Assembly: GCF_947623445.1 (NCBI RefSeq)
Contig: NC_135242.1
Location: forward strand, 3,286,001-3,350,000
Length of the DNA: 64,000 bases
Source: Clavelina lepadiformis
Taxonomy: Eukaryota > Chordata > Ascidiacea > Aplousobranchia > Clavelinidae
Direction: 5' to 3'
Part shown: positions 4,355 through 64,000 of the stretch, one piece after another
Position numbering within the stretch: the first letter of the stretch is position 1
How the letters are laid out: each line of letters starts with the position of its first letter
The notes under the pieces: model-generated
Databases searched by the model: none
What the model was told of the DNA's origin: nothing
Seen by the model: only the letters and a program-made list of their open reading frames with translations
Position numbers and translations under genes: made by a program

Positions 4355-6978
4355 CATTCCCTAAGTTTCGCACCCTCTAAAAGATTAGCTCTTAGTTGGG
4401 AACTCTTAGCATAAAGATTGTGCATACACGTATAAGATTGTACATATATAAAGTATGAAAACAATTTAAAGTTAGACGAATAATAATCTTATGTTAGTAG
4501 AACATATGGATGTAACTGGGATACATTGCTTGATACATTGGGATTCATTGCTGAGATACAAACTTTTGTCCCAAGCAAAAAAAAATAATTGACTGCTGTA
4601 TTTTGATTCCTCACATAGCTTGCTTTGCCTTGGCTCGCTTAATTTATTACAAGCTATTGACCAGCATCGGTTATGTTACTTGTCAGGTGTTTGCTTACAA
4701 GTAAAAAAGGAACCGCAATTTTCAAAACTTTGACATTAATTTTGTAACGAAAATGAAGATCGTAAAAGACTTGAAAAAGACTTTTAAAACTTTACAATGG
4801 TAATTTTTTTGCTGGTGTTTTAGTGTCTTCGATTTATTTATTCTTGCCTACCTACTTTTGTCTCTTTTGGACTAAAAGCAGTTTTTTGTAAGACATAAAT
4901 TCGGCGACAATTCACTGATCACTACGAAGCGAACAGTCTTACGTTTTCGGGACCTTGCTACAGAGCGTGTGTTTTCTGATCGATCGGGTATTTCATTAAT
5001 GATTGCTCTACCCATTGCTCTTTGCTATCGTGCCTGCAGAAGATTGGCATAAGCACCAATCTGCGTATGGTATCAGGCCCATCCTTACATCACGTTTAAC
5101 CGAATGAGTAGCGATCAACTTAATAAAACCTTAATGAATAAGCTTAGTAAATTCTATAACATAACTTGTTTTTTTGTAAAAACAAACTTGGCTTATAGTT
5201 TCATCTGTAGCGCGCAGCACAATGGAGTTAAACTATATTGCGCACCACATCGAATTAACGGAACAGCTAATCTGCTAATACTAGAACTAAACTGTAGAAA
5301 AAAATTCTGCATAAGCGCTCACTCTAAAGTAGACTGCTGAGCAACATACCAGACATTTAGCAAATCAATACCTTAATTGGTTTTTGTTATGTCGTCCAGC
5401 AATAATGTAATTAGTAGATTCCAATTGATGAAGAAACAATGAAAAAAATTGCGATGGCAGATAATTTCCCTGATGCGCAGTCGCAATTCAAATTCCTAAA
5501 CCAATAATAGAGATAGAGCTTATATTTGCCTTATTAATGTGTTGATGAAATATTTAAAAAATAATAATTTAGTTACATGTTTGGGGGAATACCCGTTCGG
5601 TATGCATTTTATTTATAACAAATAATAGAGAAGAAATCTGTATAGGCCTCTTGATACTTTTTAGCCCCAGGCCCATTATGGTCTTAATCCGGCTCGGATC
5701 CTATCTATAGAAATTCTCTAAACTTCAGTTGAGTAGATTTGATACAAAACACAGAGAATCTGATTAATTCGACTTTTAAAGTTGTTCATTACTAAGCTTA
5801 TTTTTGGACAAACATAAGAATTACGACAACATTAGAGTTATTCAGAGAAAAGGGTTTTAAGAACCCGACTGCAGTTAAAATGCATCTCTCAACGTTACAA
5901 GATCACTTAGAAAGATTGTTTTCAAAGTCGCGTATTATCTCTCTCTCATCAAAACTACAGCATGCAAACGGAACACACTGAAGGAGCGAATTAAAGAAAC
6001 AGAATTTAATCGTAAGGGACAATGCGCTTATCACTACAGGAAATGCTTCGGATTTTTGGACTCACAGGCTCAGTGTTAATTCTAACAAGAGAATGTTCGA
6101 TAAAACATGGCTATTTTGAATATGACGATGCGGTTATCGCGAGGTCGATCGTGCAGATAAACATGTTTACCAATCACATTGTCAATCAATTATTCTTCGA
6201 TTGATGGGTAACAATTATATCGTGAACTGAGAATGATCTTATGACAAGTATGACATTATGCAATAAACGCGCAGTAAATGGTTGATACACAAACATAACG
6301 TCACGACTTGGGAGACAATGGAATCAGTGTGTTCCATAACCAGTAACGTGACCTGTGCTGTGCAGAGATCAGTTGTTTCTACAGAATAATTTTACTGCTA
6401 AAATAAGCTTTTGCTTTTTTCGTTAAAATTATGATTGGCTTCAGAGACATATTCCTTTGAGATTTTTCTTTTCTATGGAAGATTTTAAGCATGAAAAGTG
6501 TTTCTATTGAGGCAATTTACCGTAAATCTGTAGCACTCAAGTGTACTAAGTTACAGACCGCATACAAACACATTTTATTACGCAGGAAAAACAACTAATG
6601 CTATACCGAAATCCACAAAACATTTTGTGAAAAACTACAGAGCACATTATAAACATCATATAGTCCAACATTTTTGCTAATGCTATTCCCAAACACGGGA
6701 CAAGAAAATAATAAACTTATTCTATTTTAACAAGATTAGATAGCATTTGAAGCTACGCGTGAAGACAATTGTGTAAACAGACACACACAAATCGCCGAAT
6801 GTACGAAGCCTAAAATTTACATCCTGGTGAAGGGGTTAAGTGTGCCGATAAGTTGGTATTCCATCACAGTGAACAGCTTAATACGATAACATTGCCAGAG
6901 AAAGAGGGGGGTGCCAACAAAAACCAAGCAAAAGGCAATTGCAGGGTTAAACAGTCGCAAAGTTTACGATCAAACTGA
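4355..6978. other. Intergenic stretch between the asparaginase genes
   Basis: AT-rich sequence between the hAT copy and the 3' end of asparaginase copy B. I see only short chance open frames, and no exon-like blocks, RNA gene or clear repeat. Confidence 0.5.
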
Positions 6979-9665
6979 TCATATTTTCTCTGTGCGAAAA
7001 TTCGTGCAGTCTGTCCCGAACTGAACACAATCGTTGCTGTAGGTTGTTTCGTTCTGAAACTTGCCACCAACCCTAGCCCATGACATATTTTGTGTTGTAA
7101 AATGGACTCCGACGCGCCCACTGCCGTCTACGGATATTGCGCCACCGCTTCCGCCAACTCGCGCCTTCATGTGGTTCAAAGACTTCATTGTCGCTTGCTG
7201 AGGTGACATTCCTTAGAAGAAAAGTCGTTAAGATTTATTGCCATGAAGTGAAAAAGCAACCGCACTAAATGCACACATCTGTTAACATGTTAAATAAAAT
7301 TCAATTCGACTGAACATACACAGCAGGGTCTTTGCGAAGTCAGAACGAGACTTTCAACGACGATTTTTGTCAAATGAGGAAGCAATAGCTTTTTTTTCAT
7401 CTTAAGTGAAATTTCTTCATAGTTGTCCTAGATCATTGACTTACCGTGTTCAACGTACATGCTGATCATTCGTGCTAGGTTGACTTTCATAATCGACTCG
7501 CCGTGGCCAGTCGTTGAAACAGCAACTAGAAACGACATTTATTAAGAGCAACATGTTGTGACTCATACGTACAATGAACGCAAGAACCAAAGCAATACAA
7601 ATGTCTGACGAATAAAATGTTTTCTACTGTTTTGGTTCATGCATTCGTTCAACTGAAGAAACGTTTATCCTTGTTCAAAATAATTTATTCTACAACACTA
7701 TAGTCTAAAGACAGTAAACGGCCAACTGATACTACAGCGGCAAGATTTATCTGATTACTTGAATTGTTGTCAGCAAAACCACCACTGCCACCGATCGGCG
7801 AGTCCGAAATTCTTCCTACTTTTTGCGCATTTATTCCGCCGGTAGATGTCGCACATGCCAAATTACCATGGCAATCAAGCGCCACTGCACCTACAGTATC
7901 ATGTCCACTGCACATGTGAAAAGTGTTACTAAAATGCAATTCGACCAATGCTAAGATGCCAAAGACATAATTGACTCACTCCTGGCTATCAAAGAGTTCG
8001 TGGATGGACGCAGAATAATTCTTGTAATCTTTCATCTCTTTGCGGCTTTCGTCTGTGATGAAATACTCTAGCGGTCGTTCCTCCAGACCATGCTGCCTTG
8101 CAAGTGTCAGGGCCGCTTCTCCGCTCAAAAGGCAATGATGACTCTTGTAATTAAGAAAAAAGAGTTTCGTTAAGTAAACAATCATCTAGAGTGGAATTCG
8201 TAGTTTTTCCTAAACCGCAATTGGTCGTAAGTTGTAACAAACAGACTCACAGCGAACAACAATAGAGTGTAGCGGATGTCAGTCAGTCGGTTATCATGAC
8301 TGCAGGTAATAAAGCAAAGTGGTAAACTAGGGATAAAAAACTTTATGCTTGTTTTCAACGTGATCTTAACTAACTGGTTACAAATATATCAGCCTCATAG
8401 CAATTATGTTACCTCATCTAGGATAAGCCTTGCTGCTTTTACAGGATTCTTGACGTGTTTGATGCACAAACAGCCTCCCATGTCGCATGTGTCCCCGCGC
8501 ATTACAAGTGCGTGCATTTCGACCTCGCCCGCTTCGTTCAAGACCGATCCATGACCTGAACAACATGATCGTTAACTTTGACAAAAAAACGATTAATCTA
8601 TAGACATTTATAAAGCATCCGAGGCTTCAGGCTAAATTTTAAGTTACATTTTCCTATGTATGAGTTGTTCTGAAATATTACAACTTACATGTAGGCCTAT
8701 TACATACCTGCATCAAAGTAGGGGTTGTCTTCCAAGGCTTCCACTGCTTTTACAACAGCATCAATGCAACTGCCTCCATTCTTCAGTACTCTGCGTATAA
8801 AGTAACACCTATAGGCGTTATGCGAGTAGGCCAAACCGCTTTCAAAATTCAAAAATGTGAATTTGCCAAGTTAAGCATTGAATTGAAGAAAATGTATTAA
8901 GTATTGATTAAATTAAATTCATCTTACATAGTATTATTATGACCATTGAAACCTCTACTATACATAATACGTTGTTTTGTGTAAAACTTTTGCAAAATAT
9001 TTTGACCGTGGTAACTTAAAGTGAACATTAGACATTAAATCCGGGAACGTTCATAACAAAATATTAGACTGTGAATCTATATTGAGTAAAAGTGACAACA
9101 TATCAACAGTTAAGCTGTTTCTGGATGATTCCATATCGCGTATTATGCGTGGTTACTCGTTTCAGTGCAGCATTCGTCATTACTCGCGGGAAATGACGTA
9201 CGTACATAGCAGCTAAATACGCTATCAATTGCTAAATACGTAAGAAAATGTTGCAAACAGGAAACTTTTCCCTCGTTTATTTAGCAATCGGTCAAAAAAG
9301 TACAAGCACTGTGATTCTGCAATCTCGAAAATTATAATCATCCAAATAATTAGGCAACACTTAACCTTCAAGTCGTAAAAAACTGTGACACAGATTTTCA
9401 ATTCCCATGGCAACACCAACACCAGTTGTTTACACATTGCTGACTATCACTTCCGGGGATTGCCCTTGTAAAGTAGCAAACACGACCTAAGTTAACAACT
9501 GCAAGCTGTTACTGACCTGTGACCGGTAACAGCTGCATCCCTTACGCCCAGAGCCGAATGTTCATGAATATCACTGGGAATCTTCCAAGCTCCTCCATGG
9601 ACGACAATCACCGGATCACAGATAAAATCAGGATCATTTGATGAGCTATTACCGTTGGTTATCAT
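6979..9665 (-). CDS. Isoaspartyl peptidase/L-asparaginase-like protein, copy B
   Basis: Seven exons on the minus strand: 9517-9665, 8708-8790, 8413-8555, 7980-8143, 7759-7907, 7445-7525, 6979-7211 (333 aa), all with GT-AG boundaries. It resembles ASRGL1 over its whole length. Motifs in order: IVVHGGAW near the N-terminus, [38 protein letters not shown], nucleophile Thr in [10 protein letters not shown] at about residue 182, VGRISDSP, and [17 protein letters not shown]. Autocleavage before that Thr would give alpha and beta chains. Expected role: cytosolic removal of isoaspartyl damage and asparagine hydrolysis. No signal peptide is visible, so lysosomal aspartylglucosaminidase is less likely. 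This copy keeps every motif that is altered in copy A, so I take it as the functional member of the pair. Confidence 0.9.
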
Positions 9666-9757
9666 ATTTCGTTTCTTTTCTTATTCTAAGGTTATGAAGG
9701 CAGAAATTCAGCGCATGCAACCGAAAACAAAATACCCGTGGTATGATTGGAAGAAAC

Positions 9758-21229: not shown

Positions 21230-31342
<10,113 letters not shown>

Positions 31343-55628: not shown

Positions 55629-58600
55629 TCAAACCCAAGCCGCTTTGGGCTGGGATCTTCCCAAAGGAGGATATGGAATCCAGTGCGACGGTACAGGATA
55701 TGGAAGCCAGGGTGAAACGACAAAGGGTTCAACTTCACCAGTATACGCCAGATAGCTTTGTTTAAACTGATCGCGCATTATAGGCGTCATCTGTTGTACC
55801 TATTGATGAAATAAACATTCCGACATTTTCATGTTAGCTTGTTTTAAACGAGTGTTGGTGGTAACAAAAAGGAAAAATCTGTCTTCCAACTAATGAAAAC
55901 CAACTAACGATAAAGTACCTGAAACTTTTTGTAAACTGTCCGAGAATTAGTTGACGCGACTTTCTTCAGTTTATTGTAATAATCATCTAATATAACCTCC
56001 GTCTAAAGTTTAAAATAGGCTAATTTGAAACAATTCAATTATAACAACTATAGTCTCTCATTTTACAGACCAGGTCTAGGTTTACGTTTCCAATATAGTT
56101 TAATCCGTAATGGTTCAACATTACAATGATGTTTAAATATTAAACAATCACCTTTTGGCGGACTTCAGGTAGATCATCGTAATTAAAGGTTTGGGGATAA
56201 TCTTGCAATAGATATTTGGGTAAGGCAACAGCTTTTGGTGTGCAAACAAACTCTGATATCTTAGGGCGACGAGCGGGGGCGCCCCACGTTCTGGCAGATA
56301 TCGCTAAATAAAGAAATAAATTAAAGGCAAACTGTGCTCGTTTTTTAACACTGATCATAAAATCAAGCATCAAATTATAAAACTGGCCGCAAACTGTTCA
56401 ACATTTGCGCATTTTATAAAGAATTAGCCTAATTTAATTGACCTGTTACCTGTCACTGATGCTCCCTGCAGCATTCACATAAAGAGTTTAAGTTATGTTC
56501 TAGTGCAGATTACCTCTCCGTTTTATGATTGGTCCAGGAACCCTTTGCACAGGTGCTGAGTAGATTCTTTTGAAAGCTTCATCATTTGTAATACTTTTCT
56601 TCAACTTTGTAGGTTTTGGAGAGCTCCTTCGTTCGGTCTGAACCCATATTAAAACACCGATTGCATCAATAGAAATTTAAAATTAGAGTAAATAATAAAT
56701 GAGCCTACCAATTAAAATTTATAACAAAACATCGGGTAAGCGTAAGCTACGTTTACTCTGGTATGAGTGCAGATACTGCAGAAATATTAACAGCATTTAA
56801 ATGTAGGCTTACTTAGATTTGTACCTTAAATTGTATTTCATGGTCGTATTTAGGCAAATTTTTCGGTGCTGACTTTGGCCGTTTTATCGGGATCCGGTCA
56901 ACATTTGAAGCTTTTGTTTTTGCAGCTGACTTTGCTCGACCTTTAACGATCAAAAACAATTGAAACAAACAGTTCAACTAAAATAAAGTTATTTTACAGT
57001 TTCGATCAAGTTAGATAAGTGCGTTAGAAAGTTACTTTTGCTCAACAATTTCTTTCGCAAAACTTTTTTCTTCTCGGCCTCCTCTCGCTATGTAGAGTAA
57101 AACAGTTAGTGGCTTTGCTTCTAGTTTGTCCGATTCATCAATAACAAAATATGCATTAGACGAGTGCCAAGTTTAAGATAAGATTTTTACTTTGAAGTGA
57201 TTAAAACACAATGGCTGAGCGTATGGTGATGATTTCATTTTCCCCCAGTTGGCAAAACGTGATCTTTCGTCATGAAGTTCTTTTTTGATGCTCTTGAATC
57301 TTTTCATGATCTCTTCGAAAGAAATACCGAGGCATCTTTGTCCTAAACGTAACAAGTGCTTCAACAAAGAAAGTCAAACCAAGGAAGTAGATATTATAAA
57401 ATTCAAGGCTTACCAACCTGCTGAGTAATACTGGACCACGTGATCGTTGACCTTTTTTACCTTGTTGATGTAATATTGTCGAATCTCGTTCATAGATTCT
57501 TCTTTCGTAACTGTTTTCAAAACTTTAAAAAAGATACTTTTGCGATGTCTCCTGCGAATATATATGAATGGAAAGTAATTAAAAGGCGCTACCCTTGCAC
57601 TAAACACTTCTTTGTCCGATATCAGGGCTACCCACCTGGCGTTCGCCGTATTGTTAAACGTATTTCTCTTAACTTCGTCTGAATTGTTTGAGTTCACCAT
57701 TTCTTCCCACAATTTCATTTCCGATCGCATTTTTTGCTGATCTTCATCTACAGAATAAGGATTAAAATAACGCTTTTAATTTCACGCATATACCAAACTG
57801 ACCAATGGATAAGTGTGCGAAAATCCCAATGACAGATCGTTTAATCGTTTTGGTAATTTAATTAAGCCTACCGTGTATAAGTTTTACAAAGTTTTGAGGT
57901 TGAGTCACTGCAGTCAAGAACTCATCAAAATCTATTTCACCAGTTTCCTTGATATTGAATTCCTTATGGATTTCCTCCACTTCTTCCAATGTGATGTCTA
58001 TGTCGGGAAATGTACCCTGTTCGCGACAAATATGGATATATATAAGTTTGGTCTCTATGGAAGCCTGGGATTCCAGAGATAAATTAATCTAACCAAAACG
58101 GCTTGATAAAGTTCCTTAGCGCTGATTCCTCCACTTTGGGTTTGATCAAAACGAGAAAAGAGTTTATGAAATGCACCTAATTGTGTGGAACTTAAGGAAT
58201 TCCTCCGGGTCCTACCAACCACCTAATACAAGATGAAACGTTGGTAAACATTGGAAATAAATAGCAGTAGTTTCCGTAAGGCAAACATGACTGTGTTAAG
58301 TTAAACTTACAGGAGCGCGCATCAATGATATTGAGTCTGAATGTGACCTAAACTCCTTTGAAGTCTTTGTTTCTGGTGGAAGATCAGTGTCCTATAATAA
58401 TGATATTGTTGAAACCTGTCAAAATAAATTAAGTGCAAAGCAAAAGCGACTTACGTCACCAACGGTGGAGGGATAAGAACCCACGAATACCGGTGGCTCC
58501 ACAACCTCCTTGACGATTTCTTCCGTTGCTTCATCATTGGATTCTTCTAAAGCATTTTCAACCACGCGAGCCTCCACCTACGTTTGTAAAAAGATGTACT

Positions 58601-61254
58601 TACACGTTACAGAGAAACTCAACTCGAATGCATCAGAAGTTTGCGGGTGGTAAACCTACCCTGTACGTATAAAACAAGAAATATAACAATACCGGCATCA
58701 TGAATTCCGCCAATACATCTATTGATTGTGTGCGTTTTCTTGAGGCATTGATTTTGCTGGATCCAGGTTTTTCATGTTGGCTGCAATGCATCAACACCGG
58801 CTGGCATTATCATTTTACAGTTACTTTATTTTAAGATATATTCTTAACTTACAATTAATTTCTCCTTATACCTCATTTTGTTTCCGCAAACTATAATTTC
58901 GTTCAAATCGTCGTTCGTTGGCTTGTGAGGAAGAATTGGTTTTACGACGGTTGCATATTTTCCATGATATGCACTTTGAGGTCTTTTTCGTTGTGAAAGT
59001 TCAGTGGCACTTTTATTTACTATTTTTGTCTCGGGCATCTGCTGGTTAGTTTTATTGTTTACCAATGAACTTGAACTTGACGAGAGTGAGCTTTGTGCCT
59101 GACTTGACCGTGAACTAGAGGCCGAAGTAGATAAAATGGTGGAGGTACTTGATTCAGAGTTCTGCAGAAATTCCACTGTAAAACACCATCAACATACCTT
59201 CAGTAATGAATGAGTTTTTATACTATGTCATGCACACCTATGAGCCTAGTTGTATATCTGATTCTTGAAATAGTTATTACAACAGGTGAGCAAGAAATTA
59301 TCGCACCAATTAAATTCAAGAAAAAATAATGGAAATATTTGCTCGTACCAACGTTTTTTTCAAAGGTTGAAGACGAGTACCATGGTTTGATTAACTGTGA
59401 AGTTATCCTAGATTCGATGCCCAGATTTTGGTTGCAGCTTCTTGTCGATTTCAGAGCGCTTTTGGCAGTTTTTAAAGGAGAATCTTTCGTTGTACTTTGT
59501 GCCGAGAGCTTTTGTGCAAATATACAACAACGTAGCCTATATGCTTCAACTGATAAAAATGGGAAACTAAAAATGAAACTGTAAAGTTTACAGTATAAAG
59601 TTTATAAACTATCATCTTTACGCTTTAAACAACACAAACTTGTCTTGCCTTGTTTATGTTCAAGTTCTTGTTTTGCTCATCGTTTGTTTCAAAGTCTTTC
59701 AGCGCAGCAGTCAGTGCATCTAAACATTTTATCGACAATATAATATGACTTACACTAATCTTCAATTATGTCTTCTGCGTACTAAGACACATTTTTTCCC
59801 GAAACATAAAATCACAATGTTCAAATAATAATCAGCAACCATCTGCGTACTGTCGCAACGTTAACCGAACACAAATTGAACAAAGTTTCAAGAAGATTTG
59901 ATTACTGTACTCGAAACCAACCACAATTAGTTAAATTGATCGAGTGGTTCGAGGTGCGCCTTAGAAAGTTTGCATTAGTTTTCCCACACTTAGAACTAAA
60001 TATCCGAACCTTCAGCCAGTTTTTGTGCGCCTTGTTTGGGAGAGGTAGGATGCAGTTTTTTTTCGCTTTCCTGTTTATCCACGTCAAAATTTTCATTGTG
60101 GCTGCTGGTGTACTTCAGGGCGTTCTTTCCGGGTTTCAATGAAGAATTTTTCGTTGTACTCTGTGCCGAGCGCTTTTGTGCAAATATACAAAAACGTAGC
60201 CTACTTCAACTGGTAAAAATACACCACTAAAATTACACCTAAAAACCATCTTCTTTACGTCTAGTTAAATAACGTAAACTTGTCTAGCCTTGTTTTTCTT
60301 CGAACTTTTTTTCTGTTTTTCGTTTGTTTCGAAGTCTTTCAGTGCAGCAGTCAGTGCATCTAAAAATAATACACACCAATATTGTATGATCTACTATTTT
60401 CTGATATAAATAACTTAAAGTTCCCGGTACAGGTACGTCTAACAGGCTTGATTACTCTTAACTGCAATCAGTTAATTTGAGCATATAGGGTGAGGCACGC
60501 CTTAGAAAGTTGGCAGTAGTTTTCCCACACTTAGAAATAATTATCTGGACCTTCTGCCAGTATCTGGGCGCCCTGTAAGGAAGGGGAAGGATGCAGTTTT
60601 CTTTCGGCTTCCTCTTTTTCTCTTTTGTCTCTTTCTGTCTCTTCCTTACTCTTCAAGTTACCAATGTTTAACAATGTTCTTAGTAACGCTGAAACGTCGT
60701 CGTTTAAAATGGACGGTTCCTCGCTAAAAACAAAAAAGGATTGTGTGACCGACTTCCCTTTAAAGAAATGTATGAAAGTTTTTAAAAGTTGTATTTTTTT
60801 GGAAAAATTTAGATTTGCAAAGTTTGGAATGCATAAAATTTTTCATGTAAAAAAACAAATAACATGGGAAAACATGTGCTAAAACTTGCATCATTTGTTG
60901 CACAAATTGACCAAATGTTTCAAGTATCTTTGAAAACTTGACATAAATAACATTTTATGCCAATAGATGTAATACATAAGCTTTTGACATTTGTAAACCT
61001 TAAAATTTACAACAGTCATATGAAATTTATGACGGTTGGTCATTATCGCCATACGTCGATACCGGCATGGTATCAAGTGCCATTTTATAATGATAGGTTT
61101 TCATCTCTTACCTTACACTTGTAGATGTAACTTCTGATTCACTTGAATGGCTGGATAGAGGAGCCGGTTGGTATGTCGTGACATCAGAAAATGAAACCCT
61201 CTTTTTTACTTTTGGCTTTTTCTTCGACAGGTTTGATGGTGCTGGCCTTGACAT
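55629..61254 (-). CDS. EF-hand protein of unknown identity, possibly ciliary
   Basis: Twenty-one exons: 61112-61254, 60551-60723, 60280-60359, 60010-60172, 59640-59719, 59349-59508, 58872-59175, 58693-58780, 58455-58577, 58311-58391, 58094-58222, 57872-58016, 57636-57747, 57418-57551, 57191-57342, 57036-57087, 56825-56940, 56514-56637, 56152-56303, 55919-56002, 55629-55790 (918 aa). I do not recognise the family. Residues 1-30 are basic with RVSF at 19-22, a PP1-docking-type motif. Residues 48-266 hold duplicated modules and a Ser-rich tract follows. A canonical EF-hand loop is at 491-502 (DQTQSGGISAKE) and a degenerate one at 529-540 (NIKETGEIDFDE). Helical basic segments follow, and the tail is rich in Pro, Trp and Tyr (SPWLPYPVPSHWIPYPP). 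Some segments (KRPQSAYH, KRPKSAP) resemble axonemal proteins, but this is a weak guide. Confidence 0.8.
59349..60723 (-). repeat. Intragenic tandem duplication of an exon pair
   Basis: The exon pair 60551-60723 plus 60280-60359 corresponds to 60010-60172 plus 59640-59719. Shared blocks are ERKLHPSPSLQGAQILAE versus EKKLHPTSPKQGAQKLAE, and DALTAALKDFETN at the start of both second exons. Exon 59349-59508 repeats the first part of 60010-60172 (SAQSTTK). Flanking introns also match, for example gcacaaaag before 60172 and 59508. Confidence 0.85.
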
Positions 61255-62902: not shown

Positions 62903-62908
62903 TTTATT
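62903..62908 (-). terminator. Poly(A) signal of the peptide gene
   Basis: AATAAA on the minus strand, about 85 bases after the stop codon at 62990-62992. Confidence 0.55.
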
Positions 62909-62989: not shown

Positions 62990-63714
62990 TTAGCCGGAAA
63001 AATCAGTTTCAGTGTCGAGTTGTCTGACCAAATCATCTAAAAGGCCATCCAATGACGCTGCAAATATGACATATCCTTTCGTCCCGGAAACCGCTTGATT
63101 TCCAACTTGACCAATTGTACCGTCGTCACTGGTCGCCATGGCTAAATCATCAGCATAACCCCTTCATATGAAACATAAAACTTGAAAATTAAGTTAATGT
63201 TAGCGGCAACGAAAGAGCTCGGGTTTCGGATAGCAGACATTATGAGAGAAATTACAATCCAATATAGCCTTGATCAAAGATCAAATTTTGAACTTGAAAA
63301 AAACTGAAAAGGACCTTTTTCCAACCATAAACCTCATGAGCCTGTTTACAGCATTGCGGTCCAAATATTTGGCTCGAGAATTGGTGTAATAGCCACTTGA
63401 ATAACGTTTGCTGGGCACTTTTTCCAACAGAGCACCGTCCCTCATTAGTTCTCTGTGAATTCATAATCAACACATTATTGTCATAAAATTACAAGACTGC
63501 TAGTAAATAATTTCATATCTTTCTGAGAGCTGAACATATTTGCCCGTGTAGTACTTTAATAATGTGACATCATGGCCTGGCATAGGTCTGCTTTTTCATA
63601 CCTGGAAAGAATGTCATTGTCGTCTTCACCTTGTGCCCGCACTGAGGCGCCTGACGCCGCGGAAAACGCCACGGCGAGGGTAACCATAATTGCGATCAGT
63701 TTATAAACAGACAT
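62990..63714 (-). CDS. Secreted peptide precursor of the PACAP/GHRH/secretin superfamily
   Basis: Three exons: 63602-63714, 63315-63452, 62990-63161 (140 aa, phases 2 and 2). Residues 1 to about 23 are a signal peptide (MSVYKLIAIMVTLAVAFSAA). After a short propeptide, VPSKR (dibasic 53-54) releases a 27-residue segment, 55-81, starting YSSGYYTNSRAKY. It is followed by Gly82-Lys83-Arg84, the classic amidation and cleavage signal. Against PACAP-27 the length is identical, and Ser2, Gly4, Thr7, Ser9, Tyr13, Ala18, Val19 and GKR coincide. Position 6 is aromatic, and Tyr1 recalls GHRH. The acidic C-terminal part (85-140) is probably a spacer. The ligand would act on class B1 receptors through Gs. 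The exon 2 donor (AAAAG|GTCCTT) is weak; the only other in-phase donor (ATGAG|GTTTAT) would delete the GKR. Family call is by eye from spacing. Confidence 0.75.
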
Positions 63715-64000
63715 CTTATGAAATAATCTTATTCACGAATATTAAATCTTTTATAAAGGCAACGATCTGTTTTTGAACTCTAAAAAAGAGAAAAATCTTG
63801 TTTTCAGGTCACTTTTCACTGGTTAAAGTGGTTAAGAAAACAGTAGAAACGATGTGTGATGCTTGTAGGCCACATTCTATTATGCAGATAGAAAAGATGA
63901 GCGTAATGCCTCGCTGCATTTCGTCTTACTTTAACATAACGTCATATCTAAACTGAAATCTTTTACAAGTATGAAGAATAATATAATAGGAAAGATTTAG
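63715..64000. other. Upstream flank of the peptide gene
   Basis: 286 bases up to the window edge that must contain the 5' leader and proximal promoter. No distinct element recognised. Confidence 0.4.

Follow-up and report, generated by a model that had tools for sequence, protein, structure and literature searches.

Sea squirts are among the closest invertebrate relatives of vertebrates, and a hormone of the PACAP/glucagon family has long been sought in the group, where a gap had remained between amphioxus and vertebrates despite the glucagon-type receptors of Ciona. Excerpts of two papers (PMC2880984, 2010; PMC7251081, 2020) describe searches of Ciona genomes and of transcriptomes from tunicates that found no PACAP/secretin-family gene, and cast doubt on tunicate cDNAs described in 1997; in the excerpt of the later paper, the existence of a urochordate PACAP is treated as unresolved. 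In the excerpted main text of a Ciona central nervous system neuropeptide atlas, PACAP, secretin, glucagon, GHRH, calcitonin, and class B have no occurrences (PMC12441681), and no report of a genomic tunicate family member was found among open-licence PMC papers.

The question raised by this locus is whether a small gene near the end of a 64,000-nucleotide stretch of the Clavelina lepadiformis genome (the window, C3:3286001-3350000) encodes such a hormone. An earlier note, made from the letters of the window alone, had called it a PACAP/GHRH-like hormone precursor in a probable tunicate genome. The organism is indeed a tunicate, the species being C. lepadiformis and not Ciona. Our analysis gives a probability of about 80% that this ascidian gene encodes a secretin-superfamily precursor with a single hormone of PACAP/glucagon type. 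The family itself is already known; a tunicate genomic member is probably new.

Structure of the gene and its predicted precursor

The gene lies on the minus strand at C3:3348990-3349714. Its features, in window coordinates, are as follows.

63750..63755, minus strand: TATA box TATAAA upstream of the ATG, function putative
63602..63714, minus strand: coding exon 1, with ATG, hydrophobic signal-like start (MSVYKLIAIMVTLAVAFSAASG..), acidic pro-region, and GT donor
63315..63452, minus strand: coding exon 2, 138 nt, phase 2-2, containing KR, the 27-mer, and GK-R
63404..63409, minus strand: KR (AAACGT), a putative prohormone-convertase site
63323..63403, minus strand: 27 residues predicted to form the mature hormone, YSSGYYTNSRAKYLDRNAVNRLMRFMV-amide, with the amide predicted from the GKR behind it
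63315..63322, minus strand: GKR amidation/cleavage signal, with base 63161 completing the Arg codon
62990..63161, minus strand: coding exon 3, with acidic C-terminal pro-peptide and stop
62903..62908, minus strand: AATAAA past the stop, a putative poly(A) signal

Two GT-AG introns, with donors GTATGA and GTCCTT and with acceptors that end in CACAG and TGAAG, separate the three exons. Spliced in frame, these give 423 nt including the stop codon and a precursor of 140 aa. Its order is a signal-like start, judged by eye, followed by an acidic pro-region, KR, the 27-mer (which starts YSSGYYTNSRAKYLD), GKR, and an acidic tail, and the reading of exons and junctions thus reproduced exactly the 140-aa, three-exon gene that had been described. 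The hormone and its cleavage sites all fall within a single exon of their own, exon 2, with GKR beginning at 63322 and intron 2 splitting its Arg codon. As read from the translation, the precursor appears to fit the family layout, in which a predicted secreted protein carries a dibasic-bounded hormone of about 27 to 44 residues. Across the six frames of the window, five segments have the form [KR][KR]-(24 to 45 aa)-G[KR][KR], and the 27-mer is among them.

Upstream of the coding region, window positions 63715-63800 (minus strand) include a run of mostly pyrimidines closed by an AG (CTCTTTTTTAG), and a second AG stands immediately 5' of the ATG. Trans-splicing is known from other tunicates, and both AGs are possible trans-splice acceptors.

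The gene is also represented by a second C. lepadiformis record. P0001, a 140-aa "unnamed protein product" from an 11.6-Mb contig, is identical to the precursor at 135 of 140 residues and carries an identical 27-mer, so the hormone sequence is already public, but unnamed. The two proteins differ at residues 14 (exon 1; A in the window precursor, S in P0001), 86, 93, 117, and 137. Four of these five differences are in exon 3 and none is in exon 2, a distribution that lends no support to conservation of exon 2, which holds 47 of the 140 residues (chance of 0/5, 0.12, not significant). The earlier note had also raised the danger of a donor that removes GKR. Such a site does exist, since an earlier in-frame donor (GAG|GTTTAT) is present whose use would remove FMVGKR, but P0001 is a separate gene model whose junctions preserve GKR. 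Beyond Clavelina, no homologue was found among 5.8 billion proteins, searched as a whole database and by region with a word-based method that is weak on short divergent peptides (61 and 2 candidates scored), and within its own genome the 27-mer matched itself only.

Resemblance to secretin-family hormones

A phmmer search of the 30-mer against 177,635 PDB sequences (E up to 10) returned six matches at E values of 0.47 to 1.6. Each of the six was glucagon, GLP-1, PACAP, or an agonist designed after such hormones (Peptide 15, Peptide 20), and the alignments were in register, beginning at residue 1 or 2. The reversed 30-mer and one shuffled 30-mer each returned no match from the same database. 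At the level of sequence, the likeness of the 30-mer to secretin-family hormones is not chance.

Scoring similarity without gaps, as the BLOSUM62 mean over nine human hormones whose sequences were entered by hand, gave the same picture. The 27-mer scored 29.6, which none of 200,000 shuffles reached (best shuffle, 22.8; z = 6.0 in a further 20,000 shuffles), and when all six frames of the window were compared it ranked first of 27,389 open 27-mers, the next scoring 13.4. Identities over 27 residues numbered seven each with PACAP, GHRH, and glucagon, six each with secretin and GLP-1, four each with VIP, PHM, and GLP-2, and three with GIP, and the top individual score was that of glucagon (42, versus 38 and 36 for PACAP and GHRH), due to KYLD. 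The name "PACAP/GHRH-like" stands as regards a secretin-superfamily precursor, on the PDB matches, the shuffles, and the Src linkage described below, but is too narrow, with glucagon equal to PACAP and GHRH in identities and best in BLOSUM score, and with the two receptors scored (see below) being of glucagon/GLP and PTH type.

Position 1 of the 27-mer is Tyr, within the His/Tyr choice of the family, and Tyr1 is present in GHRH as well. In the N-terminal cap, Thr of the Phe6-Thr7 motif is kept and Phe is swapped for another aromatic, giving Tyr6-Thr7, while position 3 is Ser, and the D/E/Q common (not defining) in the family is absent. Tyr1 is natural in GIP too, according to an excerpt of PMC2880984. 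A single-sequence AlphaFold model of exon 2 (mean pLDDT, 74.9) places a helix at residues 32 to 43 of 45, corresponding to hormone residues 16 to 27; such a modeled helix would be compatible with the family and is not discriminating.

Profile methods were less responsive. A check with the Pfam Hormone_2 model, which had been proposed for this gene, yielded no signal: scans of the precursor and the 30-mer returned no family at E up to 10, Hormone_2 (diagnostic, not defining) included. This is one half of the paired outcome that the earlier note had named as refuting, the other half being a lack of conservation in related ascidians. A Hormone_2 scan of the whole genome was empty, and equally empty in all 14 control genomes, hence uninformative. 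A home-made profile from the nine human hormones scored the candidate weakly, at 2.3 bits and rank 670 of 20,001, the other 20,000 being shuffles. The full-length precursor matched eight unrelated PDB proteins and no hormone. Because Pfam is silent, the nine-sequence profile weak, and the full precursor without a PDB hormone, the peptide is to be regarded as divergent, and resemblance by itself would not settle family membership. Nor was there any sign of further family members in the genome, where the pattern KR-[HY]xxGx[FY]T occurred at 14 sites versus 27 for a backward-pattern control (the other 13 sites being examined as matched letters only).

These silent or weak profile results, together with the full precursor's lack of a hormone match, the modest single E values, and the failure to find relatives outside Clavelina, are what would favor an alternative in which the 27-mer is an amidated ascidian peptide from outside the secretin superfamily, such as a tunicate-private neuropeptide, that came to resemble these hormones by convergence. 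Evidence from genomic position bears on this choice.

A Src-type kinase neighborhood

The window contains a second gene of relevance to family membership.

26859..31179, plus strand: SRC-family tyrosine kinase gene with SH3, SH2, and kinase exons (span of its open reading frames, not the whole gene)

Joined fragments of this kinase matched Src at 426 bits, Fgr at 393, and HCK at 355 in PDB, a ranking by which the window copy is SRC. With a joined piece of its catalytic region as query, 150 of 202 candidates in the genome were scored, and at least 10 of them matched at E up to 1e-12. The top four were the window's own copy at C3:3316315 (plus strand, 98%) and three minus-strand copies at C3:3368099 (83%), 3376621 (80%), and 3360463 (74%), the copy at C3:3360 kb showing the expected Src-type kinase exons; the remaining six had at most 62% identity, and two of these were 3.1 Mb off on C3. 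The four best copies span C3:3316315-3376782, or 60.5 kb, which is 0.03% of the genome, and the hormone gene lies among them. In human, SRC also lies near GHRH.

In excerpts of PMC2880984, the Src-type kinase YES1 is a conserved neighbor of the PACAP gene in Takifugu (both paralogues), Xenopus, chicken, and human, whose arrangement the Clavelina hormone gene shares in being beside a Src-family kinase. Ciona is described there as having a YES1 homologue without a peptide gene. One of three published neighbors tested was linked, namely the Src-type kinase, whereas RPN2 was unlinked on C1 and METTL4-type (MT-A70) genes were unlinked on C9, on C4, and on C3 at a distance of 22 Mb. After-the-fact arithmetic puts the chance of such linkage at about 0.2% once the six flankers of PACAP, GCG, and GHRH named in PMC2880984 are allowed for. 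The Src-kinase neighborhood points to the PACAP side, and we infer that the gene is orthologous to the PACAP/GHRH members of the family.

Other genes nearby include an inositol-phosphatase-family gene (best PDB match, 3'(2'),5'-bisphosphate nucleotidase 1), which we take to be BPNT2, and RRP7, both of which separate the hormone gene from the next Src copy. A CSPP1-like gene was recognized by eye at about 45 to 54 kb of the window, six of its open reading frames having no Pfam match above the cut-off. In human, CSPP1 and BPNT2 would both lie near LYN at 8q12-13, probably a sister of the regions that contain PACAP and GHRH.

Several additional features of the window were observed. The exon encoding the start of the kinase domain in the Src-family gene is present in two tandem versions (28496-28852 and 29067-29321, plus strand), and vertebrate FYN has alternative exons 7A/7B at the matching position. 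Two adjacent asparaginase-like copies occupy 207-2044 and 6867-9680 (minus strand), with Asparaginase_2 matching one open reading frame of each. Open reading frames at 56143-59188 (minus strand), between the CSPP1-like and hormone genes, have a weak EF-hand match below the cut-off.

Taken with the peptide itself, the neighborhood speaks against convergence. Convergence would have to produce, in one gene, an alignment register starting at residue 1, a 27-residue amide length, the cap residues Tyr1, Gly4, and aromatic6-Thr7, and linkage to Src; the coincidence of all of these makes it improbable. A considerably less likely alternative is a hemocyte antimicrobial peptide, formed as a cationic amidated helix between acidic pro-pieces in the layout of the ascidian antimicrobial clavanins and styelins. 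Features that would fit it are the signal-like start, the acidic flanks, the net positive charge of the 27-mer, and the amidation signal, but the polar YSSGYYTNS half is unsuited to a membrane-active helix, helical amphipathicity of the 27-mer is ordinary (15,013 of 100,000 shuffles were as high), and the in-register hormone resemblance would be left unexplained.

Class B1 receptors in the genome

If the gene encodes a secretin-superfamily hormone, its partner would be a class B1 receptor. HRM and 7tm_2 profile searches of the genome revealed several class B1 receptor genes among the matches listed, and ten loci were read. The receptor at C1:12.246-12.249 Mb, scored as joined exons with part of the 7TM region missing and among the best 60 of 79 matches, gave 181 bits to GLP2R and GLP1R, 165 to PTH1R, 163 to GCGR, 140 to SCTR, 132 to VPAC1, and 125 to PAC1, and by these scores is clearly of the glucagon/GLP type. 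By eye, a close copy of it is present at C7:16.385-16.388 Mb, and a similar HRM exon at two further loci, C4:24.85 Mb and C3:22.70 Mb. The receptor at C5:20.745-20.750 Mb is of PTH type, with 212 bits to PTH1R versus 157 to the secretin receptor. The two partly assembled receptors that were scored are therefore of glucagon/GLP and PTH type, and neither is of PAC1/VPAC type. An excerpt of PMC7251081 describes two receptors of glucagon type from Ciona and none for PACAP, and the Clavelina results agree with this. The PTH-type receptor could suggest that the peptide is a ligand for it, or a CRH-type ligand, instead of belonging to the PACAP/glucagon group, but with all six PDB matches of glucagon/GLP-1/PACAP type and none of PTH or CRH, this is scarcely credible.

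Two arrays of related genes were seen in the receptor survey. A tandem class B1 cluster occupies C1:12.20-12.25 Mb (L056 and L059-L061), in which four copies were read: L056 is the one of glucagon/GLP type, and an HRM with DGFMCWPHGRAHSLVEAPCP is common to the other three, which seem to be a divergent subgroup. At C4:0.48-3.24 Mb, class B-type 7TM matches whose scores and model ranges resemble each other form a long array (among the matches listed, L029-L033, L035, L036, L043, L045, L046, and L048-L051), with weak HRM-like matches below the cut-off between its members; this array looks like a lineage-specific expansion.

Comparison with known hormones and proposed mode of action

The 27-mer combines features of several vertebrate hormones. 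Like PACAP-27, it is bounded by KR and GKR with a predicted amide, and Ser2, Gly4, Thr7, Ser9, Tyr13, Ala18, and Val19 are common to both, so that the length, amidation signal, and residues listed in the earlier note all held up on alignment. Tyr1, Thr7, Asn8, Ser9, Lys12, Leu14, and Leu22 are shared with GHRH, including the Tyr1 and Asn8-Ser9 already singled out there. Shared with glucagon are S2, G4, T7, and K12-Y13-L14-D15, alongside the highest BLOSUM score of the nine hormones and a receptor type present in the genome. Unlike PACAP, the Clavelina precursor has no second, PRP-type hormone (none was found in it; the next best 27-mer scores below 0 and overlaps the first), and it has Ser3 and lacks Asp3, Gln16, and the RKQM motif. 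Unlike glucagon and GLP-1, it provides an amidated 27-mer, one hormone per gene, without Ser-Asp at 8-9 or Trp-Leu at 25-26. Given the lack of PRP and of the motifs particular to PACAP, the gene is probably best filed as a divergent PACAP/glucagon-group member and not as PACAP proper.

Among invertebrate chordates, the amphioxus PACAP/GCG gene similarly encodes divergent peptides of PACAP/glucagon type (excerpts of PMC7251081 and PMC9049855). It specifies three peptides of 32 to 33 aa with 10 to 15% identity to human PACAP (PMC7251081, excerpt), whereas the Clavelina gene has one 27-mer with 7/27 identities. The Chelyosoma PACAP1/2 cDNAs (McRory and Sherwood 1997) were likewise a tunicate PACAP claim, for peptides 85 to 96% identical to human PACAP (excerpts of PMC7251081 and PMC2880984) that were not found in other tunicate data according to the excerpt of PMC7251081; the Clavelina claim, in contrast, concerns a genomic and divergent sequence.

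As a secretin-superfamily precursor, the protein would lose its signal peptide and then be cleaved by convertases at KR and GKR, after which Gly would be converted to an amide and a 27-residue peptide amide released. The cap (Tyr1, Gly4, and Tyr6-Thr7), in which Gly4, the aromatic at 6, and Thr7 suit a receptor-activating role, would enter the core of a class B1 G protein-coupled receptor, and the modeled C-terminal helix (residues 16 to 27) may dock to the HRM ectodomain. The likeliest partner would be the glucagon/GLP-type receptor, presumably signaling via Gs and cAMP. The hormone gene is presumably expressed.

Implications for the hormone family

The evolutionary scenario we lean toward, with less assurance than the family assignment, is that this gene is the tunicate descendant of a single ancestor of PACAP, VIP, GHRH, and perhaps glucagon, that the pairing of Src kinase and PACAP predates the vertebrate genome duplications, and that the tunicate hormone signals via glucagon-type receptors since a separate PACAP receptor either never existed or was lost. 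The earlier expectation that the gene would fix the pre-vertebrate form of the hormone family asks too much of a single species, whose Ser3 is unusual. If the identification is true, a tunicate gene with Src linkage would be the missing ligand, a search beside Src would offer a handle for locating the Ciona counterpart, and the glucagon-type receptors of tunicates would become testable.
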